Origin: Paenibacillus pabuli
GTDB taxonomy: Bacteria > Bacillota > Bacilli > Paenibacillales > Paenibacillaceae
Assembly (NCBI RefSeq): GCF_039831995.1
Contig: NZ_JBDOIO010000003.1
Location: forward strand, 2,852,001-2,916,000
Direction: 5' to 3'
DNA: 64,000 nt
Shown: one piece after another, positions 17,896 through 50,170 of the stretch
Numbering within the stretch: position 1 is the stretch's first letter
Layout: each line of letters opens with the position of its first letter
Translations under genes and position numbers: made by a program
Notes under the pieces: generated by a model
What the model saw: only the letters and a program-made list of their open reading frames with translations
What the model was told of the DNA's origin: nothing
The model's database searches: none

Positions 17896-18031
17896 GGCCG
17901 TTCCGGTTACGGATCGTTCTTCCGATCGCTGTTGTCTCCAGGTTTTCTGAATTTCCCTTGGCAAGGGAAAAACCCGGAGACAAACGCGACCGCTCCGCTT
18001 CTCCAGAATCGATTCCGTCCCCTCCACTACC
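17896..18031 (-). repeat. Structured intergenic repeat, copy 1
   Basis: Read on the minus strand it has CGGAATCGATTCT, GAGAAGCGGAGCGGTCGC, a long hairpin TTGTCTCC..GGTTTT..CCC/GGG..AAAACC..GGAGACAA, then CAGCGATCGGAAGAACGATC. The two outer blocks also pair. It lies upstream of dgt, in the orientation of dgt; 17625-18316 holds no gene. Confidence 0.85.
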
Positions 18032-18182
18032 TCACTGCTGAGTGTTATAGATTTAATGTGATCAGTACATTGGTTGAGGACCATAACATTTAATAAATTG
18101 TAAAAGACAGACACATTCAAAATTCCTATGCAGCACTTTCATGATCCTCTGTCTCCTATTTTGTTTCCTTGGAGGGAGAGAA

Positions 18183-18217
18183 AATAAAAAACCGACAGGG
18201 ACGGAATGCCCTGTCGG
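18183..18217 (-). terminator. Terminator of htpG
   Basis: A perfect 9-bp stem CCGACAGGG / CCCTGTCGG is followed by TTTTTTATTTT on the minus strand, 100 bp past the htpG stop. Confidence 0.92.
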
Positions 18218-18316
18218 GTGCAGATGGTCAGCGATGATCTTGCTGGCCTATTACTTATTGAGAGTGCTGATAGCGTGAAATTGCACGCTACTTAAAAACT
18301 CAGCTCGGTGAAGCTA

Positions 18317-20197
18317 TTACACCATCACTTTGCAGATATCGTTGGTGAACTCTACTGGATCTTGGATTGGCAGACCCTCGATCAGCAATGCCTGATGATA
18401 CAGCAGGCTTGTGTAGAGGTTCAGTTTTTCCTTATCCTGTGCGTAAGCGTCCTTCAGAGACTTGAAGACATCGTGATTCACGTTGATCTCCAGCACCTTA
18501 TCCGCTTGTACATTCTCGCTGTTCGGCATGGCTTTCAGTATTTTCTCCATCTCGATGGTCAACTCACCTTCGGTGGACAAACATACCGGATGGCTTCTGA
18601 GGCGTTTAGAAGCTTTCACGGCTTTTACTTTTCCTGCCAGCTGTGCTTGCATTGCTTCAAACAACTCTTTGTTGTCGTTGTCGTCTGCTTCATTTTTCTC
18701 TTTGTCTTCGCTGTCTTCGATACCCAGGTCACCGCTAGAGATGGATTTGAACTCTTTCTCCTTGTAGTTCATGATCATTTTGATCGCGAATTCATCGATG
18801 TCCTCGGTGAAGTACAACACTTCATACCCTTTATCAAGCACACCCTCAATCTGAGGCAGCTTCTCGATCCGCTCAATGGATTCACCGGAAGCGTAGTAGA
18901 TATACTTCTGATCTTCAGGCATTCTGGAGACGTATTCGTCCAGGCTGACCAGCTTCTTCTCTTTGGAAGAAGAGAACAGCAGCAGATCCTGCAGTGTATC
19001 CTTGTTTACACCATAGTCGCTGTATACGCCATATTTCAACTGACGTCCAAACGCTTGATAGAACTTCTCGTAGCTCTCACGATCGTCCTTCAGCAGGCTT
19101 TGCAGTTGGCTCTTGATTTTGTTTTTGATATTTTTCGCGATCAGGCTGAGCTGACGGTCATGCTGCAGCATTTCACGGGAGATGTTCAGGGACAGGTCTT
19201 CCGAATCAACCATACCTTTGACAAATCCGAAGTAGTCCGGCAGCAAATCGCCGCATTTGTCCATGATCAGGACACCGTTGGAGTACAATTCCAGACCTTT
19301 TTCGTACTCTTTTGTATAATAATCAAACGGTGTGTTCTCCGGGATAAACAGGATTGCGTTGTAGACCACTGCGCCATCTGCGCTGATGTGCAGGTGTTTA
19401 AGCGGTTTGTCAAAACCGTACCGCTTTTCCATATAGAAGTTGTTGTAATCTTCTTCGGTCAGCTCGCTTTTGTTTTTGCGCCAGATTGGCACCATGCTGT
19501 TCACGGTTTGCTCTTCTTTGTACTCCTCAAACTCGTTCTCCGTACCTTCCTTCGGACGCTGACTTGTCACATCCATCTTGATCGGGTAACGAATGAAGTC
19601 GGAATATTTCTTAATGATGGATCTCAGGCGATACTCTTCCAAAAACTCATCGTATGAATCCTCTTCGGTGTTCTGTTTGATCGTCAGGACGATTTCCGTA
19701 CCTACGGAATCCTTCTCAGCTGGAGTAATCGTGTAGCCGTCCGCACCTTCGGACTCCCATTTCCACGCTTCGTCACTGCCCAGCGTTTTACTTGTTACAG
19801 TCAGCTTGTCCGCCACCATGAATGCAGAGTAGAAACCTACCCCGAATTGTCCGATGATGTTGTGGCCATCTTTGGCTTCATTCTCCTTCTTAAATGCCAG
19901 CGAGCCGCTCTTCGCGATTACTCCGAGATTGTTCTCCAGCTCTTCCTGGCTCATCCCGATACCGGTATCGGTCAGCGTGAGCGTACGGTTCTCTTTGTCG
20001 ATGTTCAGCTTGATGTAGTAATCCTCTTTGTTGAAGACGAGCGTATCGTCGGTAAGGGCTTTGTAATATATTTTGTCAATGGCGTCACTGGAGTTGGAGA
20101 TCAATTCTCTCAAAAAGATTTCTCTTTGGGTATAGATGGAGTTGATCATCATATCCAGCAAACGTTTGGATTCTGCCTGGAACTGTTTCTTGGCCAT
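18317..20197 (-). CDS. htpG: Molecular chaperone HtpG (Hsp90 family)
   Basis: A 626-aa cytosolic Hsp90 chaperone of the expected length. The N-terminal GHKL ATPase has [12 protein letters not shown] (31-42), DTGIGM (77-82) and [13 protein letters not shown] (114-126); the middle domain has [16 protein letters not shown] at 20197 ([10 protein letters not shown]) follows AAAGGAG; the open frame reaches 49 codons further up without a start signal. A perfect CIRCE with its own promoter lies about 490 bp upstream on the same strand, so HrcA control is likely. A structured repeat sits in the leader between them. Confidence 0.97.
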
Positions 20198-20370
20198 GAA
20201 TGGGTGTTCTCCTTTCAATTTGGGATATAGAATGATTGAATTGAATATAGTTAGAAGCTGAACATTCACGATACCGCTAAGTGGATAGAACTCTTTGATC
20301 GCTATGATCCTTTTCTGAAACTCTTGTATCTTGTATAAGCTCAATTAAAAACATGACGTTGCGCGGTGTA

Positions 20371-20516
20371 GCCGTTCCGGTTACGAATCGTTCTTCCGAT
20401 CACTGTTATCCCCTAATTTTTTTGATCCCCTTTTTAAAAGGAAGAAATTAGGTGATAAAGGCGACCGCTTCGCTTCTTCAGAATCGATTTCGTCCCCTGC
20501 ACTACTTTCGCGGTTA
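20371..20516 (-). repeat. Structured intergenic repeat, copy 2 (htpG leader)
   Basis: Same layout as copy 1: ACGAAATCGATTCTGAAGAA, GCGAAGCGGTCGC, hairpin TTATC.CCTAATTT..AAATTAGGGGATAA, then CAGTGATCGGAAGAACGAT. It lies between the CIRCE promoter and htpG and has the orientation of htpG. Confidence 0.85.
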
Positions 20517-20683
20517 ATCAGAGCCAATTTTAAGTTGAGACAAGTACAAGTTCTGTTGATCAATTACGCTCTTTATCAAAGTATTTTCCGTCCACAATGT
20601 GGCCTCGCGCTCTTTCAGTTGACTTCTACATTCAAAAACACAATCATTCCATATGTAGTCGCTGTAGTATAAAGCATCATTTG

Positions 20684-20710
20684 TTAGCACTCAGATGAGC
20701 GGAGTGCTAA
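20684..20710 (-). promoter_or_regulatory. Perfect CIRCE element (HrcA operator)
   Basis: TTAGCACTC-N9-GAGTGCTAA, with no mismatch to the CIRCE consensus. It lies just downstream of a sigma-A promoter pointing to htpG, the usual place for HrcA repression. Confidence 0.96.
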
Positions 20711-20721
20711 ACCCTTTCTTT

Positions 20722-20751
20722 TATATAACATATGGCAAAATTGGGTGTCAA
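20722..20751 (-). promoter_or_regulatory. Sigma-A promoter ahead of CIRCE and htpG
   Basis: TTGACA at 20746-20751 and TATATA at 20722-20727 (spacing 18; TTATAT gives 17) on the minus strand. The CIRCE starts about where transcription should begin. Confidence 0.85.
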
Positions 20752-20839
20752 TACGCCGTGCGTTATTTTAACAAAATGGTAGATTAACACGTCGTTTATA
20801 CACGCATATTTGATTTTAACGTAATCCATCAGACAATAC

Positions 20840-20877
20840 AAAAAGCCAGCTCGAATCAACGTTCGAACCAGCTTTTT
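20840..20877 (-). terminator. Terminator of the ABC importer operon
   Basis: AAAAAGCTGGTTCGAA pairs with TTCGAGCTGGCTTTTT around a short loop on the minus strand, 85 bp past the last permease gene. Confidence 0.85.
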
Positions 20878-20964
20878 ACGGCTTAATGCAGCTTAATGGT
20901 AAGTCTGTTTAATAATGTGGTTAAAAAGAGCAGATCGTTGGAGGGCTGAAGTGCACCTCAAAAT

Positions 20965-21861
20965 TTACTTCACCATCTTCGGATCAAGGGTATCACGCAA
21001 GCCATCCCCGAGCAGGTTGAAACCAAGCACGGTCAGCATGATCGAAAGTCCCGGAAAGATAAGTGTCCACGGGGCCTTTTGCAGAAACTGACGGGAATCC
21101 GAGAGCATTTTGCCCCATTCCGGGTCAGGCGGTTGTGCACCCATGCCCAGGAATCCAAGAGCAGCAGCTTCAATAATGGCCGTCCCGATGCCCAGCGTCC
21201 CCTGAACGATCAGCGGGGTAAGGCTGTTTGGCAGGATATGGCGAAACAGAATTCGCATATTATTTGCGCCCAGTGTGCGGGCAGATGTAATGAATTCCTC
21301 CTGTCTCAAGCTAAGTACACGCGAACGCACCAACCGTCCGTAGGTCGGAATGTTCACGATGGCTATGGCGAGTAATGCATTTTGCAGGGAGGGACCGAGG
21401 ATTGCCACTATGGCAATCGCGAGTAGGATGCCTGGAAAGGCCAGCAGGATATCGAATAGACGCGAGATGAGCATGTCTGCCCATTTTCCATAAAAACCCG
21501 CCACCAGACCAAGCAATGCTCCTGCAATAATGGAACCGATCACCGAAAAGAACCCCACCCACAATGAGATACGCGCTCCGTGAAGCACTCGGGAAAACAC
21601 GTCACGCCCCAGATCATCGGTACCAAACCAATGCTCTGCCGAAGGGGCCTGAAGCCGATCTGTCAGCACTTGTTCCTTGTAATCGTAGGGGGCAATGTAC
21701 GGGGCAAGGAAAGCCAGCAGGATGAAAAACACAATAATGATCAGTCCGGCGAGCGCCAGCCGATTGCGGCGAAATGTTCTCCAGGCTTCCCGCCATGGAC
21801 CGGACGTACGTGCCGATGCTGCTTCTATGGATTGTCCGGTATTGGGTGATAATTTGGCCAT
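20965..21861 (-). CDS. Peptide/nickel-type ABC transporter permease (DppC/OppC family)
   Basis: A 298-aa inner-membrane permease. An N-terminal cytoplasmic segment and first helix (LALAGLIIIVFFILLAFLAP) precede the OppC-type extracytoplasmic signature HWFGTDDLGRDVFSRVLHG. Five further helices follow, with the ATPase-contacting EAA loop in ITSARTLGANNMRILFRHILP. ATG at 21861 follows AAGAAGGGAGACGCCGC. It is the last gene of an SBP-DppB-DppC series. A structured repeat (copy 3) fills the gap to the DppB-like gene. No ATPase gene is adjacent. Confidence 0.92.
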   Translation of the reverse strand: MAKLSPNTGQSIEAASARTSGPWREAWRTFRRNRLALAGLIIIVFFILLAFLAPYIAPYDYKEQVLTDRLQAPSAEHWFGTDDLGRDVFSRVLHGARISLWVGFFSVIGSIIAGALLGLVAGFYGKWADMLISRLFDILLAFPGILLAIAIVAILGPSLQNALLAIAIVNIPTYGRLVRSRVLSLRQEEFITSARTLGANNMRILFRHILPNSLTPLIVQGTLGIGTAIIEAAALGFLGMGAQPPDPEWGKMLSDSRQFLQKAPWTLIFPGLSIMLTVLGFNLLGDGLRDTLDPKMVK

Positions 21862-21924
21862 GCGGCGTCTCCCTTCTTTAGCTATGAATGAAAGATAAGA
21901 AAAATGAGTCCAATAACACTTCGG

Positions 21925-22047
21925 ACTACGATTGCTGAACCATCTTCCGATCGCTGTTATCCCCAGATTTGTTGATCCACCTTTTTTAATGGTAAAAATC
22001 TGCTGATAAATGTAAACGCTCCGCTTCTACAGATTGGTTCTGCACTC
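21925..22047 (-). repeat. Structured intergenic repeat, copy 3
   Basis: The most diverged copy on the minus strand: GCAGAACCAATCTGTAGAAG, hairpin TTATCAGCAGATTT..AAATCTGGGGATAA, then CAGCGATCGGAAGATGGTTC. Its outer stem has changed on both sides (GAACC..ATCT with AGAT..GGTTC). It lies between two permease genes of one operon, in their orientation. Confidence 0.8.
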
Positions 22048-22116
22048 TTCGTATCGTGTAATTTGTGATAACTATCTTATTTAAATGTTCATTCAACAAA
22101 ACAAATGATGGAGTTC

Positions 22117-23121
22117 CTACTTATAGCTAATTCGTGGATCAAACACAGCGTAAAGCAAGTCGACAATCAGGTTGATCAATACGAAAAAGAAGGCAACGAT
22201 CAGAATGCCACTCTGTATGACCGGATAATCCCGCGAACTAATTGCTTCATATATATAGCGTCCCACACCAGGCCAAGCGAAGATTGTTTCGGTCAATACT
22301 GCGCCACCGAGCAAAGAGCCGGTTTGGATGCCAATAACGGTCAGGACGGGAATAAAGGCATTTTTGAGCGCGTGCCCATATACGACAAAAAACGGCCCGA
22401 GCCCCTTCGCCTTCGCGGTACGGATATAATCCGAGCTCATCACCTCAAGCATGCTGGAGCGAGTCATCCGTGCAATAACAGCCATCGGAATAGTTCCCAG
22501 CGCAACACTTGGCAGGATGAGATGTTTGGTTACGGTCCAGAGCTGGTCCCAACGCCCGGCAATCATCGTATCAAGTACATAGAGACCGGTGATGGCTTCA
22601 ACGGGATCACGTGCATTCATTCGTCCAATGGACGGCAGCCAGTGCAGCTTGTTGGCAAACAGCCATTGTTCCATCAGACCGAGCCAGAAGATTGGCATCG
22701 ACACACCAACGAGCGCAATGACCATACAGCAGTAGTCGAACCAGGAGTTATGTTTCCATGCACTGACGATTCCCGCGTTAACGCCGATAATAACGGCAAA
22801 TAACATACTCGCCATCGTTAGTTCGAGCGTAGCCGTCAGGTACGGCACGATTTCCTGGGCAATAGGCACCTTGGTGCGGATGGATGTGCCCAAGTCCCCC
22901 TGTAGCAAATCGCCAAGATAAGCGAAGTACTGGTGGAACCACGGTTTATCAAGTCCGAGCTGGTCCCGCAGGGCTTGCTTGGATTGTTCGGTTGCCTTTT
23001 GCCCAAGTATTGTCTCCGCCGGGTCACCAGGGATGGCATGAATGATGGAAAAGACGATCAGGGTCATGCCGAGCAGTACGGGCAGCAGCACGAGTATGCG
23101 TTTGACAATATAACTGTTCAA
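22117..23121 (-). CDS. Peptide/nickel-type ABC transporter permease (DppB/OppB family)
   Basis: A 334-aa inner-membrane permease. The first helix is in KRILVLLPVLLGMTLIVFSI, then the OppB signature HAIPGDPAETILGQKAT, further helices, and the EAA loop YIRTAKAKGLGPFFVVYGHALKN (shown here only to locate it at about residues 215-240). The start is TTG 23121 with AGGTGA seven bases upstream. It pairs with the DppC-like permease downstream and the lipoprotein upstream as one importer; substrate specificity (peptide, nickel, oligosaccharide) is open. Confidence 0.92.
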   Translation of the reverse strand: MNSYIVKRILVLLPVLLGMTLIVFSIIHAIPGDPAETILGQKATEQSKQALRDQLGLDKPWFHQYFAYLGDLLQGDLGTSIRTKVPIAQEIVPYLTATLELTMASMLFAVIIGVNAGIVSAWKHNSWFDYCCMVIALVGVSMPIFWLGLMEQWLFANKLHWLPSIGRMNARDPVEAITGLYVLDTMIAGRWDQLWTVTKHLILPSVALGTIPMAVIARMTRSSMLEVMSSDYIRTAKAKGLGPFFVVYGHALKNAFIPVLTVIGIQTGSLLGGAVLTETIFAWPGVGRYIYEAISSRDYPVIQSGILIVAFFFVLINLIVDLLYAVFDPRISYK

Positions 23122-23170
23122 TCCTTATTCACCTGCCTTTGACGTATCATCCAACATACAATTATAAAAA

Positions 23171-23246
23171 GCGCTGGCAGACAAGAATGCTTTAGATTGT
23201 TACGACCAGATGTGGATTCTGCCAAGCATTGCGTGTTCACCAGCGC
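23171..23246 (-). other. Long intercistronic hairpin between binding protein and permease
   Basis: GCGCTGG at 23171-23177 pairs with CCAGCGC at 23240-23246, continued by AATGC with GCATT inside. There is no T run. Such hairpins after binding-protein genes usually let the abundant binding-protein mRNA outlast the permease part. Confidence 0.55.
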
Positions 23247-23293
23247 CTTGAAAGGTTTAACGTAGAAAAATGATTTCAGCTCACATCTATCCG

Positions 23294-24946
23294 TTATTCA
23301 AAATAAGCATTTGCATAGGATTCACTGCCAAGTGGGGAAGGCACAAAACCTTTCAGGTTTGCTTTGCCTGCCAGAATAGGTGTCGTGTGCACAAGTGGAA
23401 TCCACGGTGCATCTTCCTTGATAATGACTTGAGCCTGTTTGTACAGCTCGGCGCGTTTGTCCTGATCGGTCTCTTTCTGCGCATCGGTCAGCAGCACATG
23501 CAGCTCTTCGTTTACATAGAAGCTGCGGTTGTTCCCCGGAATCGCGTCTTTATCCAGCAGTGTGTACAGGAAGTTATCCGGGTCGCCGTTGTCTCCGGTC
23601 CAGCCGAGCATGTAGAGGTCGTCCTTCTCTCCGGCTTTTGCATCATCAAGATATGTCGCCCACTCCGGCGATTCGATGTTGACGGTCACTCCAATTTTCT
23701 CAAAATCAGCTTGGATCGCTTCGGCAACCTTCTTGCCATCAGGCATGTAAGGGCGGGACACCGGCATTGCATAGAACGTCACCGGGTCTGGCAATCCGTC
23801 CGGGAAGCCAGCTTCGGCCAGTAATGCTTTTGCTTTTTCCAGATCATACGGGTAATCCTCAATGGCATCGTTGTAACCCCACAGGGTTGGCGGCATCGGG
23901 TTTACCGCAGGCTGAGCCTGTCCGGCAAAGAAAGCATCGATAATGCCCTGCTTGTTTACCGCATGATTGAGGGCCTGTCTCACTTTTACATCGTCAAAAG
24001 GTTTCTTCTTAAAGTTAAAGCCGATATACGCCACGTTGAACGGTGGACGCTCGATCTTTTGCAGCTCGCTGTTGCCCTCAAGGATGGACAGATCATCCGG
24101 GTTCAAGTCTTCCATGACATCAATCTCGCCATTTTGCAAGGCATTGAAACGTGCCGTGTTGTCCGGAATCGAACGAACAATGACTTTGTTCAGCTTCGGT
24201 AATCCTTCTTTCCAGTAATTCGGATTTTTCTCCAGGGTGATGGAGTCGTTCCGCTTCCACTCTACGAATACAAATGGGCCTGTGCCCACGGGCTCGCTTT
24301 TGAAATTCTCTTTTTTCTCCTGAATCGCTGTTGGGCTGGCAATTCCGAACGGTGTCATCGCGATGTTTTGCAGGAAAGGCGCCTGCGGCTGGTTCAGCGT
24401 GAACTCGACGGTCGTCTCGTCAATCGCCTTCACTTCCTTGATGACACGGCCATCCTCTGGTCCAAACATGGAATCGTAATAGTCGAAGGAATCCCCTTCA
24501 AATTTATATTCACTCGCCGGATCACTCCAACGATTGAAGTTAAAGACAACAGCCTCGGCGTTGAAATCCGTTCCATCATGGAACTTCACGCCGGACTTCA
24601 GCTTAAACGTGTACTTCAGGCCATCCGCCGAAATCTCCCAGCTCTCTGCCAGACCAGGAACAACCTCAGTCTCGCCTTCCTTGTAATCCAGCAATGAGTC
24701 GAACACCTGGTGCCCAATCTTCAGCGACTCCCCGTCTGTTACAATTGCAGGGTCCAAAGCCACTGAATCCCCGCCGCGACCCATGATCATTGTATCCTGA
24801 GCTGCCGTTTCCGTTGGGGGATCTGTACCTTCTGCCGGAGCAGGTGAATTACCTGCTTCTTCATTGCTGGAGCAGCCTGACAATACCAAGACGGTGCTCA
24901 AAGCCAGAGTCAAAAAACTGGACATCCATTTCTTTCTCATTCGCAT
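23294..24946 (-). CDS. Peptide/nickel-type ABC substrate-binding lipoprotein (SBP_bac_5)
   Basis: A 550-aa extracytoplasmic binding protein. The start is ATG 24946 (MRMRKKWMSS) behind AAGGGTG. The signal peptide ends in the lipobox LSGC with the lipidated Cys at residue 25. A Ser/Glu/Thr/Pro-rich linker follows, then family 5 motifs: AESWEISADGLKYTFKLKSG, VKFHDGTDF and KVRQALNHAVNK. It should capture substrate outside the membrane for the two permeases downstream. Confidence 0.94.
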   Translation of the reverse strand: MRMRKKWMSSFLTLALSTVLVLSGCSSNEEAGNSPAPAEGTDPPTETAAQDTMIMGRGGDSVALDPAIVTDGESLKIGHQVFDSLLDYKEGETEVVPGLAESWEISADGLKYTFKLKSGVKFHDGTDFNAEAVVFNFNRWSDPASEYKFEGDSFDYYDSMFGPEDGRVIKEVKAIDETTVEFTLNQPQAPFLQNIAMTPFGIASPTAIQEKKENFKSEPVGTGPFVFVEWKRNDSITLEKNPNYWKEGLPKLNKVIVRSIPDNTARFNALQNGEIDVMEDLNPDDLSILEGNSELQKIERPPFNVAYIGFNFKKKPFDDVKVRQALNHAVNKQGIIDAFFAGQAQPAVNPMPPTLWGYNDAIEDYPYDLEKAKALLAEAGFPDGLPDPVTFYAMPVSRPYMPDGKKVAEAIQADFEKIGVTVNIESPEWATYLDDAKAGEKDDLYMLGWTGDNGDPDNFLYTLLDKDAIPGNNRSFYVNEELHVLLTDAQKETDQDKRAELYKQAQVIIKEDAPWIPLVHTTPILAGKANLKGFVPSPLGSESYANAYFE

Positions 24947-25683
24947 ACGTACAACACCCTTCCCTGTCTCATAATGTGTGTAATGCTGGCGTGAAAAAAC
25001 TTCAATGATAGCCATTGGTTCGGTGCTTGCTTGTATCAATGAAAGGCTTTAGGTGCCTGTGATACCTGTATTTGTGATCGTATTAGGATAAGATGGATTA
25101 CTATTCGTTTTTTACGGTTTTGCGGACCGAGCACAGATTATAAGATTATGTGAATTCAATAGATTACCTTTTAGAAAAAAGGTTAGTTCGGCCCAGTTGC
25201 GCAATAATTGAACTTAGGTCAATTAGCAACAGCATTCTACTATTTGGATGGAAGTTAAATCGAGTTAGAAGACAAAAAAACAAGAGAATTGCATTACGAC
25301 ATGGTAGTAGAACATCGCTCGTTTTAGATACATATTGTTTGTTTGCTCATGAAGTTTGGCATTGACCATTGGAAGGGTTGGGCAGCATCTAACATCCGTT
25401 AAATTCTGTAATGGATGAAACACTTCAGTGTTTCACATAAAGGTAGTTGTTTTGAGTTGCATGAATGATGTGTGTTCGAAGATGCAGAATTGGACAGCAG
25501 GGAGACATTACAATAACTTGTTATGTTATGGTTTTGTCATGGTGAGGAGGTTTATGTAAATAAACAGTGGTTGAAAACAATTTGGTGTAACTTACTTTAC
25601 ATCACATTCATGATTTAGACAAGAGTTTTGCGGACATAAGTCTTCAACTTTATTCACGCGTTAATTTTAGTTACATAAAACAC
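24947..25683. other. Long A+T-rich intergenic region upstream of the importer
   Basis: No open frame with a ribosome site is seen on either strand. Two abutting hairpins stand out at 25393-25417 (CATCC..GGATG) and 25416-25435 (TGAAACACT-TC-AGTGTTTCA, a near-perfect palindrome). The importer promoter must lie at the left end, but I see no clear -35/-10 pair. Confidence 0.45.
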
Positions 25684-25725
25684 AAAAAAGGAACACCATT
25701 CGACAAGAAAATGCCGATGTGTCCC
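25684..25725 (-). terminator. Terminator of the tail/lysis cluster
   Basis: GGGACAC (25719-25725) pairs with GTGTTCC (25690-25696) on the minus strand, one G-T pair, followed by TTTTTTG. It lies 55 bp past the lysozyme gene and marks the end of the tail cluster. Confidence 0.75.
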
Positions 25726-25779
25726 CTCTTGATCCTGTTCTGTAAATGTCTATCGTATCTCTATCAGATCTGTTTTAAC

Positions 25780-26718
25780 TTACTTCTTGAACAAACCTCT
25801 GCGATACATGACCGTAAGAAAACGGTAGAAATCATAACTTGCCCCATTATCGATACTGAACAGCGGATTTTTGGTGTCATACGCCAGGGCCGCATCTACG
25901 GCTGCTTTGGCCCAAACCGGAACTTCCATCTGCTGGCGTGCCTGCAGTTTGTCTACCTGTGCTTTCAGCGCATCAAACGCTGCTTTCTCTTCGGCTGTCA
26001 TCGGTTCGCCCCCTTTCGGTGGTTCAGTCGGTTTTGTTGGCTTCGTTGGCTGGGATGGTTCAGGCGGCTTCGGTGCTGCTGCTGCATATCTGGCCCGCAG
26101 CTCGGCTGCCGATCCCTCGAACTCATTCATGTCCACATTGCCGCCAATTCCATCCACCTTGCCTGAGTCCGTGTACTGCCAGAACGTCCAACGTTTCCAA
26201 GCAGGCTGATCATCCGGCACACGTGTGCTGCTGTAACGCGCAATCCACAGATCATACGTGCCAAGGGAGGTATCGAAATTGCCGGCAAATGAATTGCCCG
26301 TATATATGATTGGTTTTACACCCGTAAGACGCTGCAGTTCAGTTAAAAAGGCTTTGGCTACCGTGTTGATCTGTGCTTTGCTCAGATTGCCCGGGTTGTT
26401 CTCGTAGTCCATAACCGGTGGCAGCTGCAGTGCCTTGGCGCCTCCGACTTTTTTCAGTGTATTGGCATAATGCGCCGCTTCCGCCTTGGCACCATCCGTG
26501 GACGTTGCGCGGAAGAAGTGGTACGTTCCGACCAGCATGCCTGCCGCCAGTGCGCCGCTTACATTTTTCTGAAAGTTCGGATCGGTATACGTCTGTCCCT
26601 CGGTTGCCTTAATGAACACAAACGTCATGCCGCTTGCCTTCACTTTGGTCCAGTCGATATTGCCCTGGTAGCGGGAGACGTCAATGCCCTGCGTGTTGCC
26701 TGAGCTTCTGGTTTGCAT
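25780..26718 (-). CDS. GH25 lysozyme (endolysin of the tail cluster)
   Basis: A 312-aa muramidase. The GH25 domain covers residues 1-210: GIDVSRYQGNIDW with the first catalytic Asp, FVFIKATEGQTYTDPNF, the DYEN motif in LPPVMDYENN, and FWQYTDSGKVDGIGG. A Pro/Thr/Lys linker (about 218-240) leads to a C-terminal ~75-aa region with a short coiled coil (FDALKAQVDKLQARQQ) and a Phe/Tyr-rich end, probably for wall binding or dimerisation. ATG 26718 follows AAGGG. It has no signal peptide, as expected for a holin-dependent endolysin. It is the last gene of the tail cluster. Confidence 0.93.
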   Translation of the reverse strand: MQTRSSGNTQGIDVSRYQGNIDWTKVKASGMTFVFIKATEGQTYTDPNFQKNVSGALAAGMLVGTYHFFRATSTDGAKAEAAHYANTLKKVGGAKALQLPPVMDYENNPGNLSKAQINTVAKAFLTELQRLTGVKPIIYTGNSFAGNFDTSLGTYDLWIARYSSTRVPDDQPAWKRWTFWQYTDSGKVDGIGGNVDMNEFEGSAAELRARYAAAAPKPPEPSQPTKPTKPTEPPKGGEPMTAEEKAAFDALKAQVDKLQARQQMEVPVWAKAAVDAALAYDTKNPLFSIDNGASYDFYRFLTVMYRRGLFKK

Positions 26719-26880
26719 GTTTCTCACACCCTTTATACGGCAATTGCCTTTTGTATATAGTTAATGCCAGGAGGTTTGGGATTGCTTGTGTGCGTGTCCC
26801 TTGTTGATAGTAAAAGGTACAGTACAGCAAGTTGGTTATCTATTAACTCACCAAGGGAAACATACCCAGTCGGCACCTGA

Positions 26881-27016
26881 CCGTTCCAGATCCGGATCGT
26901 TCTTCCGATCGCTGTTGTCTCCAAATTTTTTTTGATTCATTATTTAAAAGGGTAAAATTCAGAGACAAAGGCGACCGCTTCGCTTCTTCAGAATCGATTC
27001 CGTCTCTTTCACTACT
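26881..27016 (-). repeat. Structured intergenic repeat, copy 4 (upstream of lysozyme)
   Basis: GACGGAATCGATTCTGAAGA, GCGAAGCGGTCGC, hairpin TTGTCTC..AATTTT..AAAATT..GGAGACAA, then CAGCGATCGGAAGAACGATC on the minus strand. It sits between holin and lysozyme genes in their orientation and fills most of the 26719-27101 gap. Confidence 0.85.
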
Positions 27017-27101
27017 TGTAGCTAATGGCACATACAAATACCTTTGACTCAGTAGCGCTCTGTCTGTTGTCACAGGGCACATTGGAATGAATGCTGCGTC
27101 A

Positions 27102-27599
27102 TTACTTCGTGTCATCCCTGATCTGTTGATCCACATCCTTAGGATCTGATGGTGCAATAGATTCTCTGGCATGAGGAATGTAGTTGCCGGGAATCCCCCC
27201 GTCCCCTCCCTTGCCCTTGAGCACTTCAATGGCCTGCCGGATCGCAGGTGGTATCGGTGCTCCCAGTTTGCCCCCATTTTCAATAATAGATAACAGCTCA
27301 TTCGCGATATAAAAAAAGGCGACCGCATCCCTGAACAAATGTCCGTCTCCCAGAACACCGTCCACCAGATGAGCCACCGATACCATTGCAAAAATAAATA
27401 CCTTTCGCGCGATGCCAAACATACCGACATTGCTTTCGAGCTTGCCGCTCGCCCCCGCGGCTGCGATACCCGTTAGGTAGTCCAGGATGACGAATACGAG
27501 CAGTACACCGAGCACGCCTGACCAGCCACCGAAGAAGTAGGTTGCTGAGCTGCTTAGCAGGGCGATAAAAGACTTCCATATGGTGTCCCATTTTTCCAT
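27102..27599 (-). CDS. Phage holin family protein
   Basis: A 165-aa holin of the toxin-secretion/phage-lysis type (Phage_holin_4). Hydrophobic helices lie at about residues 8-40 (LLSSSATYFFGG, VLGVLLVFVILDYLTGIAAA) and 65-100 (KVFIFAMVSVAHLVDGVLG, AVAFFYIANELLSIIENGG). The DYLTGI motif is typical. The C-terminus is polar and unusually long, with a Gly-rich part. ATG 27599 follows TTAAGGAGGTGAAACC. It would open the membrane for the GH25 lysozyme encoded next. Confidence 0.9.
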   Translation of the reverse strand: MEKWDTIWKSFIALLSSSATYFFGGWSGVLGVLLVFVILDYLTGIAAAGASGKLESNVGMFGIARKVFIFAMVSVAHLVDGVLGDGHLFRDAVAFFYIANELLSIIENGGKLGAPIPPAIRQAIEVLKGKGGDGGIPGNYIPHARESIAPSDPKDVDQQIRDDTK

Positions 27600-42655: not shown

Positions 42656-42720
42656 ATCATGTAACCTCCTGTTTATTAAATTCAGTCTTATATAAGTACC
42701 CGATTAGAGCAGGCTCACCA

Positions 42721-43461: not shown

Positions 43462-43478
43462 CCTCGTTAAAACCAAAA

Positions 43479-43509
43479 AAGAGCACCAGCCATTTCAGGC
43501 AGTGCTCTT
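43479..43509. terminator. Bidirectional terminator
   Basis: AAGAGCACxGCC..GGCxGGTGCTCTT with TTTTTTGG on the minus strand. It lies between the convergent membrane protein and the unknown gene at 43583. Confidence 0.8.
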
Positions 43510-43582
43510 CATCATTTATATGTTTGCTATCGTTCACTATGCATCCTTTAATGCCATGAGCGAGCGCCTTAACATTTTATAC

Positions 43583-44533: not shown

Positions 44534-44654
44534 AACGTCATCACTCCTTCACCGTAATAATATACTTCATAACACCATGTTTACATTGTGTTTACTTCTA
44601 TAAAATGAATCAAATCGTGCATATATGCCCGTTTCGCTTCCCAGATTCAATCAT

Positions 44655-45290
44655 TTACCCAAACTGTAATCTGCTGACACCTTGTATGACAACTTCGAGC
44701 GGGAATCGTTGTGCCTTTTGCTCCGAAAAGAACCAGATCCGTTCCTTTTTCACCACGATAAACAGACCGCTTACGTCTCCGATCGGGGCAAAGGTTTCAC
44801 TTATCGCTCCCCATTGGTTTAAACCCACTTGCTCCAATTCCCCCACCGTAGACAGTACATCTTCGGATACAAGCCCCACCTCGCACACTTGCAGCAGATC
44901 CTCCGCCGAGAAAGGACGGTTACTCTCATGATGGGTATTGTGATGAGCAATCAGCTCCAAAATGTTGCCAGCAGGATCCTCGAAATAGAGGGAATGGGAA
45001 TTCCAGTTCTCTGAATAAGTCTCATCCTCTCCATCCTGCGTACGAAGCTCTACACGTGCTGCTGCCCAGGCTTTGGCCTCCTGAAAACGATTTTTTGGAA
45101 TCATCCAGGCAAAGTGGTAGAAGGGCTCGTGCTCCATTTCACTGTGGACAAATATCATGTTTGAGTATCCGATCTGCAGGGTGAAGGAAGAATCACAGTC
45201 AGCAACCACCTTCAGTCCGAGAGTATCCCTATAGAAATGTTTAATCTCTGCCAAACGAGCGGTGTACAGCTTCACTTCTTCAAATATCAT
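44655..45290 (-). CDS. VOC superfamily protein (glyoxalase/dioxygenase fold), long form
   Basis: A 211-aa protein with a VOC module in the N-terminal half: EVKLYTARLAEIKHFYRDTL, FYHFAWMIP and SLYFEDPAGNILELIAHHN, where the His and Glu suit a metal site. The remaining ~90 residues (VGLVSEDVLSTVGELEQVGL..) look like a second, degenerate half. ATG 45290 follows GAGAGGAGG. Substrate unknown. It lies 18 bases from the next VOC gene, an obvious operon pair. Confidence 0.85.
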   Translation of the reverse strand: MIFEEVKLYTARLAEIKHFYRDTLGLKVVADCDSSFTLQIGYSNMIFVHSEMEHEPFYHFAWMIPKNRFQEAKAWAAARVELRTQDGEDETYSENWNSHSLYFEDPAGNILELIAHHNTHHESNRPFSAEDLLQVCEVGLVSEDVLSTVGELEQVGLNQWGAISETFAPIGDVSGLFIVVKKERIWFFSEQKAQRFPLEVVIQGVSRLQFG

Positions 45291-45308
45291 CTGATTGCCT
45301 CCTCTCGA

Positions 45309-45764
45309 TCACACCCTTCCGTGCATCTTCTCCCATGCACTCCAAGGCACCATACCTAGCTCCGGCTTCGCTTCATCCGGAAGCATGGATATGAATTCAA
45401 GAGAATGACCATCTGGGTCCGTGAAATATACCGATACAGCCGGCATCCAGCCGAATACATACAGCTCACCGATATCATCATCAAGGAAGTTGTGCGTTGT
45501 AATCCCTTTATCCTCCAAATAAGTGACCGCATGCTTCATGTCCTCCAGCGATACGTGGAAGGCAAAATGCTGCCGCTGCACCTGCTCTGGCTCCTTTTCC
45601 CAAAGTCCCAGCATGGCATTCCCCTCACCACCAATCCAGTAAAACGAGTTACCGCGTTCCTTCTGCCCGTAAGCATGTGGCAAACCAACAATTTGTTCAT
45701 AAAAATGATGTGATCTCTCCAGATTCGTTACGTTCAAATGGGTTTCAAATATACCTCTGATCAT
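45309..45764 (-). CDS. VOC superfamily protein (glyoxalase/bleomycin-resistance fold)
   Basis: A 151-aa protein with the paired beta-alpha-beta pattern of VOC enzymes: FETHLNVTNLERSHHFYEQI, NSFYWIGGEGNAMLGLW, QHFAFHVSLEDM and SVYFTDPDGHSLEFISML. The metal-ligand positions (H, H, E) are present. The start is ATG 45764 with AGAGG eight bases upstream. Function may be dioxygenase, isomerase or drug binding. Confidence 0.85.
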   Translation of the reverse strand: MIRGIFETHLNVTNLERSHHFYEQIVGLPHAYGQKERGNSFYWIGGEGNAMLGLWEKEPEQVQRQHFAFHVSLEDMKHAVTYLEDKGITTHNFLDDDIGELYVFGWMPAVSVYFTDPDGHSLEFISMLPDEAKPELGMVPWSAWEKMHGRV

Positions 45765-45838
45765 GTACATTACCTCTTTCTCTGTCTACTTCTCTTTCTT
45801 ATCTCATTTCAATTCTCTACATTGCCATAAGGAGACCC

Positions 45839-46414
45839 TCAGCTTCCGGATGATTCCCGAGCAGACGTTAATATTTGGGCCAGGTTCAGGAACGAACCAA
45901 TCACCCGCTGAATCCGATCCTCAATGTCCTGGCTGCCTTCATATTCCTCATATCCGTCAAAGGTTGCTTCAAAACGCCTACGCTGCGCACCGCCGATAGA
46001 GATCCACTCCTGCGCATTAATCCCATGCAGATTGCGAACGATAGCCTGCAGCTGTAAAAGAGAGCTAACCCCCACCGCTCCTCCCGCTGAGCTGATCGAC
46101 AAGACCGGTTTGCCACTAAAGTGAGCCTGGCTTAGGTGATCCAGTGCATTTTTGAGCACCCCGCTGATGCTGCCGTGATACTCTGGTGTCGATAAAATAA
46201 TGGCGTCTGCCGCGAGCATGCGCGAGTTCAGTTCTGCCAGGTTAGGATCATCTGCCTGCTTCTCATCCGGTGCGTAGAATGGAACTGGTGTCTGATACAG
46301 ATCAAACAGGCTCGCCTCATGTCCCTGGCTGCGGATGACTTCGACCGCATATTCCCCTAAACGTGTACTGGTTGCATTCTTTCGGTTGCTTCCTGCCAAT
46401 ACGATGATCTTCAT
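45839..46414 (-). CDS. NADPH-dependent FMN reductase
   Basis: A 191-aa flavodoxin-like reductase. The FMN phosphate loop is GSNRKNATSTRLGEYA (8-23), followed by STPEYHGSISGVLKNALDHL and SAGGAVGVSS. Members reduce FMN, quinones, azo dyes or chromate with NAD(P)H. ATG 46414 follows AAGAAGGAG. It precedes the two VOC genes on the same strand with a 74-base gap. Confidence 0.9.
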   Translation of the reverse strand: MKIIVLAGSNRKNATSTRLGEYAVEVIRSQGHEASLFDLYQTPVPFYAPDEKQADDPNLAELNSRMLAADAIILSTPEYHGSISGVLKNALDHLSQAHFSGKPVLSISSAGGAVGVSSLLQLQAIVRNLHGINAQEWISIGGAQRRRFEATFDGYEEYEGSQDIEDRIQRVIGSFLNLAQILTSARESSGS

Positions 46415-46534
46415 CTATGTCACACTCCTTCTTGTTTTTGTATGTTCTTCCACAACCAACCTTCAACTCTTCTGTACCTATCTTACCTTGCTTCTTCTTC
46501 CAAATCGTCAGCAGATAGACTTAACTTGCAGCAC

Positions 46535-46563
46535 AAAAAAACTCAACCTTTCGGTTGAGTTTC
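46535..46563 (-). terminator. Terminator of the two-component operon
   Basis: AAACTCAACC-GAAA-GGTTGAGTTT followed by a T run on the minus strand, 38 bp past the response regulator stop; a fine GNRA-looped hairpin. Confidence 0.9.
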
Positions 46564-46600
46564 TACGACTTTAGGCTGAGAATGAATGGATCGGAATCGG

Positions 46601-47332
46601 TCAAACCCAGCCGTTTTTCACGGCATGAATCGCTGCTTGAGTACGATCGGCCAGTCCCAATTTGTCGAGCAGATGACTGACATGTGTCTTTACAGTTTTC
46701 TCCGTAATTACAAGCTGGACGGCAATCTCCTTGTTGCTCATTCCGCGTGCAATCAAACCCAATACCTCTTGTTCGCGGCGGGTCAGCGCATCCAGACTCG
46801 GCGATGGTTCTTTCATTTGTACGGATTGTTTAAGCTTCTCATGATCCTGAACTTTCCCGTATGCTGTTGAATCTGTGCTTATAGTATCCTGCTCTTCTAA
46901 TTGGTTGTCAGATGAAGCCATCACATGCATCAACTGCCCCGCCGCCGCAGGATGAAGCTGGGCCTGTCCTGCGTGCACGTTCCTGATCGCAACGGCAAGA
47001 TCCTCCGGTTCAATATCTTTCATCAGGTACCCTTTTACCCCAGCGCGTACAGCAGGAATAACATGATCCTGATCGGAAAACGACGTGAGTACAATAACGC
47101 GGATTCCAGGCAATAGCGTGCGCAGCCGTCTGGCGGTTTCAATCCCGTCCAGCACAGGCATATGCAAATCCATGAGCACTACATCAGGCTGCAATTTCTC
47201 CGCCTGTTCGATTGTCTCCTGCCCATTGGAGGCTTCGCCAACCACCTTCATATCCGTCTGCGTGGATAAAAATACGTGCAGTCCGCGTCTCACCATCGCA
47301 TGATCATCTGCTAATAAAATCGTAATCGGCAT
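46601..47332 (-). CDS. NarL/LuxR-type response regulator (YhcZ/AirR-like)
   Basis: A 243-aa response regulator. Receiver residues are D9-D10, phosphoacceptor D55 in VVLMDLHMP, T83 and K105. A polar linker of about 50 residues, longer than usual, leads to a LuxR-type helix-turn-helix (LTRREQEVLGLIARGMSNKE, TVKTHVSHLLDKLGLADRTQ). It lies 18 bases behind the kinase gene and is surely its partner. Confidence 0.93.
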   Translation of the reverse strand: MPITILLADDHAMVRRGLHVFLSTQTDMKVVGEASNGQETIEQAEKLQPDVVLMDLHMPVLDGIETARRLRTLLPGIRVIVLTSFSDQDHVIPAVRAGVKGYLMKDIEPEDLAVAIRNVHAGQAQLHPAAAGQLMHVMASSDNQLEEQDTISTDSTAYGKVQDHEKLKQSVQMKEPSPSLDALTRREQEVLGLIARGMSNKEIAVQLVITEKTVKTHVSHLLDKLGLADRTQAAIHAVKNGWV

Positions 47333-47350
47333 GTGTTTCTCCCCCTGACA

Positions 47351-49021
47351 TTAACCCTGTTCGGACGGGAGTGGAATAACTACCGTCACCGATGTTCCCT
47401 TTCGGGATGAACTTATAAGTTCGAGCTTGCCTCCCAGCGACTGCGCCCGTTCTCTCATAATGGACAGACCGAGCGAACGTGCAGGCAGGGGCTGCTTTCT
47501 TTTCGCTCCACCCTTTCCCCGATCCTTAACAATGAACACGGCTTCGGTCTGCCTTAACTGAAGAGTGATATCTGCCGCTGTTACATCCGCATGTTTACGT
47601 ACATTATTCAGGGCTTCCTGTCCAATTCGCCATAACCCTTCTTCAATACTGCGAGGCAGGCTGCGCATGCCGGTTCGGTTTACGACGACCTGTAAACCTT
47701 GGCTTGAACCATACTCCTGCAGCGCACTTAGCAGACCCGATTCCAGCCCGGCGGGACGAAGCTGCATGATCAGTGCGCGCATTTCCTTCAGAGCCTCCTG
47801 GGACAACGAACGAATATCTCTCATGGCTTCAGCCGCCGGATGCAGATCCGCTGTACCGGACAACATGCTCTCTGCTCCCTTGGCGGTCAACGAGAGAGAG
47901 AACAATATTTGGTTTACTGAATCATGCAGATCCCGGGCCAGTCGGTTTCGCTCCTCCAGCCGGGTCAACTCACGACGTTTATCTACAAGTCTTAGGCTTT
48001 CCCAAGACGCTGTAATATGTTCTGCCAGCGCATCCACAACCTCCCGGTCTGCCTGAAGAGAATCACTCTCCGAGTCAAGCTGGGCGATCAGCACGGCCGT
48101 TTCACCGGGAGGACTCAAAGGTATGGCAGCAGCCAGACCCGGCGACCTAATGGAATCGCGAGGCATTGTGCCGCACACTTGAGACAATTCTACAATCTCC
48201 TCTGCCGATAGTATACCAGCGCGATGTGATTGAATCACACGGCGCAACCAGCGATCTGTCTCTGCAGGAATCTCGTTAAATGTCTGCAGCTCTTCCGAAT
48301 CACTGGCATGGGCAGCTTGTACAGTGAAAATCCCATTCTTTTGGACTAACAAAGCAACAAAAGGCCATTCGTAGTGCTGTTCAAGCAGCTTGACCACCGT
48401 CCTGGCCATATCGTCAGCATTGCTGCACTCGTTCAGTTCCAGACCCAGCGATCTGCTGAACTCCCCCAGTCTGGCATACTGATCCGCTCTTCTCTGCTCG
48501 GCACGGTATAATCGCATACGTTCCATGGCACTGCCGATTTGGTAGGCAACTGCCTGCAAAAGTGCGAGCTCCCCGTCACTGAAATGCTCCTTACCGGGTG
48601 CGGCAACATTGAGCAGTCCCATCATTTTGTCACCGGATCGCAGGGGAACCGTTGCGTGATGGGTGATGCCTTGCGTGTCTCCCCACTGATGCTCGGTGGC
48701 ATCCTCAAGCCGTTTGCAGTTAATTATGTTAACGGCATTATTGAGTTTCCCATCGCGGAACCGGTTAACGCACCAGCATGTTCCACAGCGCATCGGTTCC
48801 TTGTCTTGATGGACCAGAGCCGGCGGCAGGTTATAGTCCGATATGCACGAATACTCTCCACTCTCACGAATGAGAAACACCCAGCCTGCCGTAAGTCCGG
48901 TCAATTCCAGCAGCTTGCCTACTACCGTATCCAGCATCGGACTCAGGTCATTGGACGTGTTCAGCGTCTCCGCAATGGTCTTCAGCGTGTACAATTCCTG
49001 CATTCCGGAATCTTGCGACAT
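47351..49021 (-). CDS. GAF-domain sensor histidine kinase (YhcY/AirS-like)
   Basis: A 556-aa soluble histidine kinase with no membrane helix. The first GAF domain (about 15-170) contains C79, C82, C84 and C102 (CGTCWC and NCKR). A second GAF-like region follows, then HisKA_3 with the phospho-His in RNRLARDLHDSVNQILFSL, and a HATPase (RIGQEALNNVRKHADV, DRGKGG). ATG 49021 follows GGAG; the open frame upstream lacks a start signal. The Cys set resembles that of AirS, which holds a redox-sensing 2Fe-2S cluster, so oxygen or redox sensing is likely. Confidence 0.9.
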   Translation of the reverse strand: MSQDSGMQELYTLKTIAETLNTSNDLSPMLDTVVGKLLELTGLTAGWVFLIRESGEYSCISDYNLPPALVHQDKEPMRCGTCWCVNRFRDGKLNNAVNIINCKRLEDATEHQWGDTQGITHHATVPLRSGDKMMGLLNVAAPGKEHFSDGELALLQAVAYQIGSAMERMRLYRAEQRRADQYARLGEFSRSLGLELNECSNADDMARTVVKLLEQHYEWPFVALLVQKNGIFTVQAAHASDSEELQTFNEIPAETDRWLRRVIQSHRAGILSAEEIVELSQVCGTMPRDSIRSPGLAAAIPLSPPGETAVLIAQLDSESDSLQADREVVDALAEHITASWESLRLVDKRRELTRLEERNRLARDLHDSVNQILFSLSLTAKGAESMLSGTADLHPAAEAMRDIRSLSQEALKEMRALIMQLRPAGLESGLLSALQEYGSSQGLQVVVNRTGMRSLPRSIEEGLWRIGQEALNNVRKHADVTAADITLQLRQTEAVFIVKDRGKGGAKRKQPLPARSLGLSIMRERAQSLGGKLELISSSRKGTSVTVVIPLPSEQG

Positions 49022-49114
49022 ACGGATTTCTCTCCTTTTCTTCTCTCGAAGTGTTGTTGTTTCATTATTGTATACAATCATTTCGGGAGTTTAAAGGATG
49101 AACTTCTTTTCGTG

Positions 49115-49597
49115 TTAACCAAGCTTTTGACGGCTCTTTCGGGATACGGATAGTGGCTCCACGTTGATCAGTCCCCGGTCGGATAAGGCAAGGGCCATTT
49201 TATAGAAGGCACGGGTTCTGATTTTCGTATACGTATCCTTGCTCACAGGCGGATCAAATACATGGTTGTACACTTTGTAATCAAACACGTCATCATCCTT
49301 CAGATACCGTTCGCAAACCAGTACCCGCTCCTTCTCACTTAGACGAGACACGATAAAATCTATCGTATCGCAATACGCCTGACGTGCACGCTGTACATCG
49401 ACATTATAGATCGCCGTTCTGGCGGTTGAATCCCCGGTAATGTTGGTTGGACCATGGAAACGTTCCGTATAACTGGCCGTGACCATGACCTCACGTTCTT
49501 CAAAGGCAATCGTTTTATAAATCCGATATTTCTCCAGCGCGGCTTCCACGGCTGTTTGTGTTTTACGTCGGTCCAGTTCAGGCAGTAATAATTCCAT
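49115..49597 (-). CDS. ArpU-family phage transcriptional regulator
   Basis: A 160-aa regulator of the ArpU family, which controls late genes of phages and phage-like elements. Typical sequence is LLLPELDRRKTQTAVEAALE and LVCERYLKDDDVFDYKVYNH, with a sigma-4-like C-terminal helix-turn-helix (PVSKDTYTKIRTRAFYKMAL). ATG 49597 is nine bases from GGAGG; ATG 49603 is nearer. It is divergent from the Xre/ImmA pair across 640 bp and 9 kb from the tail operon, so it is the best candidate activator of the tail cluster. Confidence 0.87.
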   Translation of the reverse strand: MELLLPELDRRKTQTAVEAALEKYRIYKTIAFEEREVMVTASYTERFHGPTNITGDSTARTAIYNVDVQRARQAYCDTIDFIVSRLSEKERVLVCERYLKDDDVFDYKVYNHVFDPPVSKDTYTKIRTRAFYKMALALSDRGLINVEPLSVSRKSRQKLG

Positions 49598-49797
49598 ATT
49601 CATTCTCCTCCTTAAGGGTTAGATATAAAGTGAAACCCGCTAAGCTTCACTTCCTTTATAAGGGTTATTCAGTTTGTTCAGATAGTAACGGCCATTATCC
49701 AGGTCTCTTGCGTTGCCTTTTGGAATCAGTTCCGCAGGGCAGCACACCTTGAAGCTTCCGATTTCCAGTACATACAAATCGTTCGAATTTAATGTTA

Positions 49798-49817
49798 TGT
49801 TCGTATCTTGTTCGTAT
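49798..49817. promoter_or_regulatory. Tandem TGTTCGTAT direct repeats
   Basis: TGTTCGTAT occurs at 49798-49806 and 49809-49817, one helical turn apart, with a related GTTCGAAT at 49781. They lie about 200 bp upstream of the ArpU gene in the region divergent to xre and could be binding sites for Xre or ArpU. Confidence 0.4.
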
Positions 49818-49939
49818 TTCTATTTGAGGATACCACTTATTGGAGATTAGAGTAAACCTTCATTTTAGGTCATTTTGACGATAAAATAAAACCCTCGCTC
49901 TTATTTTCTATACCTTTTGGCATAATTGTTTCAATTCCC

Positions 49940-49968
49940 TTTACCTAATGGTATATATACGTTATAGT
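49940..49968 (+). promoter_or_regulatory. Candidate promoter of the xre-immA unit
   Basis: TTTACC (49940-49945) and TATAGT (49963-49968) are separated by 17 bases. The transcript would run through repeat copy 5 into the Xre gene. Confidence 0.55.
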
Positions 49969-50040
49969 ACAGATAATTACAGATCCCTCGTATAAGGATG
50001 AATTTTTGTAGTTTAAGATTGTTACCAAATCACCGTTAAC

Positions 50041-50170
50041 GGAGAGGGCAGAAATAACCTGAAGAAGCGTTAGCGGTCGCGTTTATCACCGGATTTCTCC
50101 CTTTCGAAAGGGGATAAGGAAATCCGGGGATAACAGCGATCGGAAGGTTGTTCTGCCAGCGGAGTGCCCC
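50041..50170 (+). repeat. Structured intergenic repeat, copy 5 (xre leader)
   Basis: The only plus-strand copy: GGCAGAAATAACCT, GAAGAAGCGTTAGCGGTCGC, hairpin TTATCACCGGATTTC..CCCTTTCGAAAGGG..GAAATCCGGGGATAA, then CAGCGATCGGAAGGTTGTTC and TGCC. The outer GGCAGAA pairs with TTCTGCC. It lies between the candidate promoter and the Xre start, in the orientation of xre. Confidence 0.88.

Follow-up and report, generated by a model that had tools for sequence, protein, structure and literature searches.

The closest described counterparts of the element treated here, a structured intergenic repeat present in five copies in a 64,000-nucleotide (nt) stretch of Paenibacillus pabuli DNA (contig NZ_JBDOIO010000003.1, positions 2,852,001 to 2,916,000; hereafter the window), are the bcr repeats of the Bacillus cereus group and the ERIC repeats. 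The bcr1–bcr3 sequences are intergenic repeats resembling miniature inverted-repeat transposable elements (MITEs) that often lie in untranslated regions or in the gaps of polycistronic operons, and bcr1 has on average 39 and up to 130 copies per genome (PMC3446304, PMC6542083). Of these, bcr3 is linked to housekeeping genes, and bcr3-carrying transcripts are reported to have longer half-lives in B. cereus, the cause being left open by its authors (PMC3446304). ERIC is an intergenic family of ∼127 base pairs (bp) in enterobacteria, Vibrio and Yersinia that is predicted to form a single long stem-loop, and in Yersinia it is reported to alter the expression of its neighbours by RNA folding (PMC2267715).

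The present element is like bcr1–bcr3 in being an intergenic repeat of a Firmicute, some copies of which sit in apparent operons. An initial annotation of the window had offered bcr1 as a functional analogy, which is reasonable as to kind; membership was probed weakly, by two copies that matched no plasmid outside Paenibacillus (the plasmid records matched being from this genus alone) in a comparison of which the bcr consensus was not part. In contrast to bcr, a TTTAT motif was not recognised at the ends of the present element, which also has copy-specific arms, a strong sense bias and a typical start-codon spacing, features that the bcr repeats may or may not share. With ERIC it shares a long stem-loop fold, supported here by folding and covariation, and transcription of the present element is presumed; it differs from ERIC in having a junction, a nested module and variable arms, and all genomes that matched it in our searches belong to one bacterial order. 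One of the five copies (copy 1) matched none of 20,395 E. coli records (blastn, 1e-5), the copy and not the ERIC consensus being the query. BIME/REP sequences with RAYT are likewise intergenic palindromes in many copies, REPs being 20–40 bp long (PMC3733652). Membership of the REP/RAYT system was rejected on the lack of Y1_Tnp (PF01797), the one model that our transposase search covered, in the P. pabuli genome and in G008, a relative with at least 150 model matches; Y1_Tnp is also absent from G003, a sister species ∼92% identical in the window region, and among 12 same-genus genomes it is absent from five and present in seven.

Our best reading is that the family is of the same broad kind as the ERIC and bcr repeats and, on searches made with single copies, is new. 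It belongs with the intergenic palindromic repeats, a known kind that is often transcribed, and has features not described for that kind in the passages cited here. Literature searches, judged by titles and abstract beginnings among the matches listed, yielded no published description, which leaves room for an earlier one; apparently the family is undescribed so far. We propose, with the balance tipping just in favour of this account, that it is a new family of ERIC/bcr-like repeats of the order holding Paenibacillus, kept as intercistronic or leader RNA hairpins. Each copy would encode an RNA hairpin made of a conserved core with an outer internal loop (GRA/GGA), a P1 stem that is variable but pairing, a junction and a long central stem, and the copy-specific arms would carry the pairing on towards the preceding gene and the ribosome-binding site of the following gene. 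Copies would be transcribed as part of the mRNA. Its dispersal may be ancient and due to movement as a non-autonomous mobile element. The hairpin would be kept, mostly in the sense orientation, since it benefits, or at least does not harm, polycistronic messages and leaders, where it may compact the spacer and influence the stability or processing of the flanking cistrons.

Family size and conserved fold

A covariance model built from the five window copies gave 81 matches at E ≤ 0.001 in the P. pabuli genome (6.95 Mb), nine of which are weak shadows on the reverse strand. The 72 places that remain include three short, weak ones; with the best 150 of 1071 first-look candidates scored, their number is a lower bound. 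The initial annotation had read the window as holding part of a large, unnamed, structured genomic family, a reading that is supported: the model search it had suggested, run on this genome and on other Paenibacillus, returned many more copies. All 11 same-genus relatives sampled match, with 6 to at least 150 matches each (shadows included). At E ≤ 0.001, matches occur in five of nine genera (that of P. pabuli among them), in two of which the sole match is weak. At E ≤ 1e-6, 144 of 198 genomes in a wider sample of the order match, mostly in two families (17 candidates scored per genome). A class-wide sample has 27 matching genomes out of 299, all 27 in the family of P. pabuli, with 11 candidates scored per genome, a depth at which weak matches could escape notice. 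An exact core 21-mer occurs in at least 120 stretches of named genomes, the 80 titles among the matches listed being all Paenibacillus. The same 21-mer was also seen in 13 stretches (L294–L306) of 12 predicted viral contigs, which may be prophage DNA or host flanks. A phage or plasmid origin was rejected, as two copies matched no phage record and plasmid matches were to Paenibacillus only.

Comparison with Rfam bears out the absence of a name. No match reaches the gathering threshold of Rfam 15 in the window, and in a relaxed search of positions 17600–27300 the best match on an element scored 23.6 bits against a threshold of 76 bits; the relaxed matches were rejected as chance. On 20 further loci the ZTP riboswitch alone was found, outside the element (RF01750, 56 bits, L034:1903–1984, near a copy and with no overlap).

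The fold is conserved, and covariation supports it. An alignment of 56 P. pabuli copies (A4), made without structure and with the few poorly aligning long-form or divergent rows kept, gives a consensus of 31 pairs that are formed in 93.8% of cells, 24 of them with changes on both sides. None of 500 shuffles reaches any of the five covariation measures, and sliding the partners by 1–3 columns lowers pairing to 32–51% (six slid controls, all far lower). Copies are of two types, A and B, which differ in the letters of P1 with pairing kept (in copy 1, type A, P1 reads ACGGA.TCG.TTCT/AGAACGATCCGT). Type B copies close the symmetric internal loop GRA/GGA with A-U and C-G, type A copies with G-C and U-A, and these closing pairs have 15 and 11 double changes. 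The outermost inverted repeats of type B are TTACAC/GTGTAA, where the type A ends differ and pair in part. G-U cells exceed A-C cells (83 versus 27; 52 versus 26 without one column), an excess that favours the sense strand as the folding strand. Reading of A4 further suggests a small GNA-loop hairpin at the junction, for which a regular-expression count was noisy. A nested hairpin module of 38–39 nt (AAAAGCTTTCTGAAAGAAAGCTGCTTCGGAAGCATACGC-like), present in 11 P. pabuli and 12 G003 copies, behaves like a nested mobile hairpin: some copies have it where their orthologues, alike in other respects, lack it, and it sits at either of two internal positions (L084:958-1481, L082, L087; L055 versus L115; L319, L320 versus L022).

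Within the window, the long central hairpin claimed at the outset is recovered by folding, with sense-strand z-scores of -4.5, -2.8, -2.0, -3.5 and -4.7 for copies 1–5, all of which beat the shuffle mean, copy 3 least; the opposite strand folds more weakly (-2.4, -2.6, -1.7, -1.8 and -3.5). The right-hand shared core, AGCGATCGGAAG, is exact in four of the five copies with one mismatch in the fifth, and its 13 matches with at most two mismatches are a count that none of 100 shuffles reached. The proposed left core is exact in three copies and differs in copies 3 and 5, by three mismatches and by one extra base respectively. The unit exceeds the ∼125–145 bp first given: its outer stem and complementary arms, which differ from copy to copy, bring it to ∼150 nt and, in the htpG leader, to 467 nt. 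Not noticed before are the sense bias, the nested hairpin module, the arms particular to each copy, the placement ahead of start codons and the replacement of whole elements at orthologous sites.

Orientation, placement and copy-specific arms

Copies lie between genes and mostly sense to the gene that follows. In co-directional gaps the sense to antisense counts are 41:6 in P. pabuli (p = 2e-7), 43:3 in G003 (p = 5e-10) and 59:13 in 120 named loci (p = 4e-8), with copies treated as independent; orthologous copies are not independent, and the first two sets are largely orthologous. Set aside from these counts were locus-edge cases (8, 7 and 25) and divergent or convergent gaps (4, 2 and 9), and the codon-trained gene call used here replaced an earlier, cruder one (++33, -+8, --5, +-5, 5 incomplete). 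Copies sit before start codons, the median distance from the right end to the sense start codon being 59.5, 56 and 60 nt (n = 44, 44 and 64 in the same three sets). None of the copies in these sets overlaps a called gene by more than 40 nt. For the window, the claim that no copy overlaps a gene holds with Pfam-supported genes, and the codon-trained call places no copy inside a gene; it fails for a mechanical open reading frame at 26843–27430 that overlaps copy 4, where the Pfam-supported gene (27102–27599, holin family) is clear of the copy.

Downstream genes of the P. pabuli copies, 40 of 44 of which were scanned with Pfam and 37 gave a match, have unrelated and largely housekeeping functions. 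They include htpG, eno, purC, purM, purH, carA, argB/argD-like, uvrC, pcrA-like, ligA and efp, names that are our reading of Pfam matches (HSP90, enolase, carbamoyl-phosphate synthase, UvrC, UvrD-type helicase, DNA ligase, EF-P), along with transport proteins and others.

Arms that are complementary within a copy extend the unit over a short distance. In the first 40 nt, complementarity lies above the 95% level of cross-copy pairs for 26 of 63 P. pabuli and 25 of 65 G003 copies, falling to 4/63 and 3/65 at 40–100 nt and standing at 6/63 and 8/65 at 100–160 nt. Far-reaching complementary arms as a general rule were rejected, the signal being largely confined to the first 40 nt; only the htpG leader and a few other places have very long palindromes. 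When each copy's arms were compared with 12 swapped arms in 66 co-directional gaps, selected for the length of their arms, the native arms gave a better fold than the swapped mean in 55 gaps and than every swapped arm in 26 (p = 7e-10).

In the htpG leader the whole spacer between the CIRCE operator, called by its consensus, and the Shine-Dalgarno sequence is predicted to form one giant hairpin (467 nt, -131.8 kcal/mol, z -5.8, 20 shuffles). Among 30 htpG loci, fetched out of 40 genus genomes searched, this gap measures 273–527 nt in 19, with z from -3.1 to -10.4 (20 shuffles each), and 13–103 nt in the remaining 11; the four long leader folds that we viewed are each essentially one hairpin with the element at the tip. 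Arms of 16 of the 19 long leaders were exchanged across species on a common core, and a foreign right arm folded worse in 96% of 94 cases at 50–60% identity, 84% of 108 at 60–70%, two of four at 70–85%, and 71% of 28 above 85%, where the mean difference is 1.2 kcal/mol; below 0.7 identity the mean fold loss is 11–24 kcal/mol. Such a long, strongly folded leader might affect heat-shock control.

Turnover at fixed sites and competing explanations

The copies are old. Motif searches recognised 65 P. pabuli copies, and for 46 of them G003 carries an orthologue in the corresponding gap, with element identities of 0.67 to 1.0, and 41 of these pairs could be mapped on A4: 21 at ≥0.9 (mean identity of element 0.965, flanks 0.931), eight at 0.85–0.9 (0.883 and 0.917) and 12 below 0.85 (0.778 and 0.853). 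Recent transposition was rejected, as there are no near-identical pairs of different copies, the best-scoring ones being 83.7% identical in P. pabuli and at most 87.7% in G003 (top 25 each); a lone 100% pair (L123) is the same DNA taken twice by overlapping extraction windows. In the 21 well-kept pairs, changes were found at 25 of 1285 paired sites (1.9%), 34 of 932 unpaired core sites (3.6%), 25 of 434 apical-loop sites (5.8%) and 320 of 4687 flanking sites (6.8%), slow paired bases that, on these sequence comparisons, would favour constraint at fixed sites. The eight intermediate pairs hold three double changes, all paired, and all 41 pairs together hold 32 double changes against 5.1 expected, 23 of them keeping pairing. 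In-place compensation within conserved orthologues is not demonstrable, the events being too few.

Elements are also replaced and lost at fixed sites. In six of 12 orthologue alignments inspected, mostly of low identity, nearly the whole spacer is another family member between alike flanking coding DNA; the others differ in part, and one mosaic (L010/L156) has poorly matching left and right P1 strands. The htpG leader carries type A in P. pabuli and G003 and type B in the close relatives G043, G020 and G036. Among ten relatives, the telA gap holds a full copy in four (G036, G043, G008, G002), the right half in G003, a right-end remnant in G001, G034 and G046, an ambiguous state in G021, and in G020 a precise empty site with the stop codon joined to the Shine-Dalgarno sequence across a TGTAA repeat. 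This empty site is better read as a loss, because other relatives keep remnants. At the place of copy 3 G003 has the element and G001 and G002 a right-end remnant only, and at the place of copy 4 G002 has a type B element.

The anatomy of the copies, their strand bias and where they sit suit an element that works at the RNA level, and it probably acts as part of the mRNA rather than as idle repeat DNA. Given the reported longer mRNA half-life with bcr3 and the reported ERIC effect in Yersinia, mRNA stability or processing would by analogy be the likeliest host function. A bolder alternative, prompted by arms that extend across the gap, is that the hairpin compacts the spacer between cistrons. 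Of the whole proposal, the specific host mechanism is the least secure part, and we put it forward tentatively. A more doubtful extension is a genome-wide post-transcriptional layer in which hairpins would fill the spacers from stop codon to Shine-Dalgarno sequence, fold them out of the way and set or keep coupling, stability or processing of the adjacent cistrons, the spacer being an exchangeable cassette whose hairpin is kept while elements are replaced.

Several points weigh against RNA hairpins kept for the host. Transcription of the copies is something that we infer from sequence, and 22 of 165 co-directional cases are antisense. The start-codon distances depend on a gene caller that is codon-trained but crude and misplaces starts (those of the genes after copies 1 and 3, for example, are too far downstream). 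The A4 structure was predicted from that same alignment, which favours it both on the cells paired and against the slid controls. In the 66 gaps the share inside one hairpin, 0.81/0.83 against 0.77 for the swapped-arm control, is a slight gain (p = 0.006), and a single-branch fold is found in 29. The 21 well-kept pairs were picked for identity ≥0.9 and found by motifs that include stem bases, so that the contrast in rates is partly biased, and their one double change has its pairing broken; 28 of the 32 double changes (20 of those kept) come from the 12 low-identity pairs, where elements look replaced. Several relatives have lost the element at single sites, where it is dispensable, and template-switch repair of quasi-palindromes could produce this pairing too.

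Two rivals are to be taken as real. One is a purely selfish, MITE-like DNA without host function, possible although we consider it unlikely, in which the hairpin would serve transposition alone, perhaps in the form of single-stranded DNA, and the sense bias reflects harm done to mRNA by antisense copies, or insertion coupled to the direction of transcription or replication. High copy number, dispersal and partial deletion or absence at some sites agree with it, as do a nested hairpin module that comes and goes, the TTACAC/GTGTAA outermost repeats of type B copies, and the uneven strand spread of the 72 places along contigs (28 minus versus 8 plus on contig C3), which gene direction or replication could each explain. 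The one TGTAA target-site candidate is equally a deletion scar, so that there is no certain target-site duplication; nor is there a sign of present movement, given how far apart the closest different copies are. Stems that evolve more slowly than loops and flanks at fixed sites, and the absence of Y1_Tnp from five of the 12 same-genus genomes, also speak against it.

The other rival takes the paired changes to be made by mutation, without function. Template switching in quasi-palindromes, which copies one arm onto the other, is a known bacterial mutational process, and it would suit arms that are copy-specific and strongly different between species at one locus, yet complementary. We regard it as improbable, since it leaves unexplained the conserved asymmetric loops, the sense bias, the site before start codons and stems that evolve slowly. 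Less probable again is a riboswitch-like or protein-binding cis-regulator of one regulon: the 5'-proximal sense position and strongly conserved internal loops would suit one, but the scanned downstream genes are functionally heterogeneous, copies lie between co-directional genes as well as in leaders, and Rfam gives no match. Intrinsic terminators or attenuators are very unlikely, for although the copies are strong intergenic hairpins and weak terminator-like sites (5–7 pairs) lie at the sense right edges of copies 3, 4 and 5, such sites are short and near shuffle level in the scanned regions (13 versus 9.1 ± 3.0 and 2 versus 0.9 ± 1.0), and copies stand upstream of core genes, some in apparent operons, where termination would silence the distal genes.

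If the hairpins are kept for an RNA function, this would be an undescribed family across a bacterial order, beside purine-synthesis, glycolysis and DNA-repair genes and an HSP90 leader. Related species whose orthologous gaps hold a full, half or replaced element, or none, form a natural experiment on intercistronic RNA structure, so effects on mRNA and protein ratios are directly testable. The family is also a clear case in which covariation must be told apart from template-switch mutation.

The window copies and their neighbours

All five copies that had been claimed were found within a few bases of their proposed places, four on the minus and one on the plus strand (Table 1), with cmsearch E-values of 1.6e-31 to 4.7e-39 from a model built from these same copies.

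Table 1. Copies of the element in the window and features next to them
Feature	Position	Strand	Basis and remarks
Copy 1, type A	17899-18025	-	cmsearch; gap between htpG and HD-domain gene (16212-17624)
Copy 2, type A	20373-20500	-	cmsearch; htpG 5' leader, sense to htpG
Copy 3, type B	21924-22050	-	cmsearch; between two permease genes
Copy 4, type A	26882-27010	-	cmsearch; between holin-family gene and glycosyl hydrolase 25 gene
Copy 5, type B	50041-50166	+	cmsearch; upstream of HTH gene; P1 stem GGCAGAA..AACCT/AGGTTGTTCTGCC
htpG leader spacer, CIRCE to Shine-Dalgarno	20217-20683 (L074:3398-3864)	-	predicted giant imperfect hairpin, copy 2 at tip
CIRCE operator of htpG (by consensus)	20684-20710	-	TTAGCACTC-N9-GAGTGCTAA in sequence
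htpG (HSP90)	18320-20197	-	Pfam; downstream of copy 2
OppC/DppC-type permease	20968-21861	-	Pfam; downstream of copy 3
DppB-type permease	22120-23121	-	Pfam; upstream of copy 3
HTH_3 (XRE-type) regulator	50238-50681	+	Pfam; downstream of copy 5

Judged from open reading frames and Pfam matches, each of the five is in sense orientation to the gene that follows, and the gene on the other side of copy 5 (49115–49603) is divergent. A terminator-like hairpin follows htpG at 18192–18217; copy 1 lies beyond it and is therefore probably the leader of the HD-domain gene rather than a trailer of htpG. Elsewhere, two adjacent copies occupy one gap at L123 (G003:C4 ∼122781–123130) and again at L076:3643-4057, downstream of htpG, and in the P. 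pabuli genome five copies lie within ∼9 kb near purine-synthesis genes (C3:3494446-3503233), one of them oriented opposite to the others.

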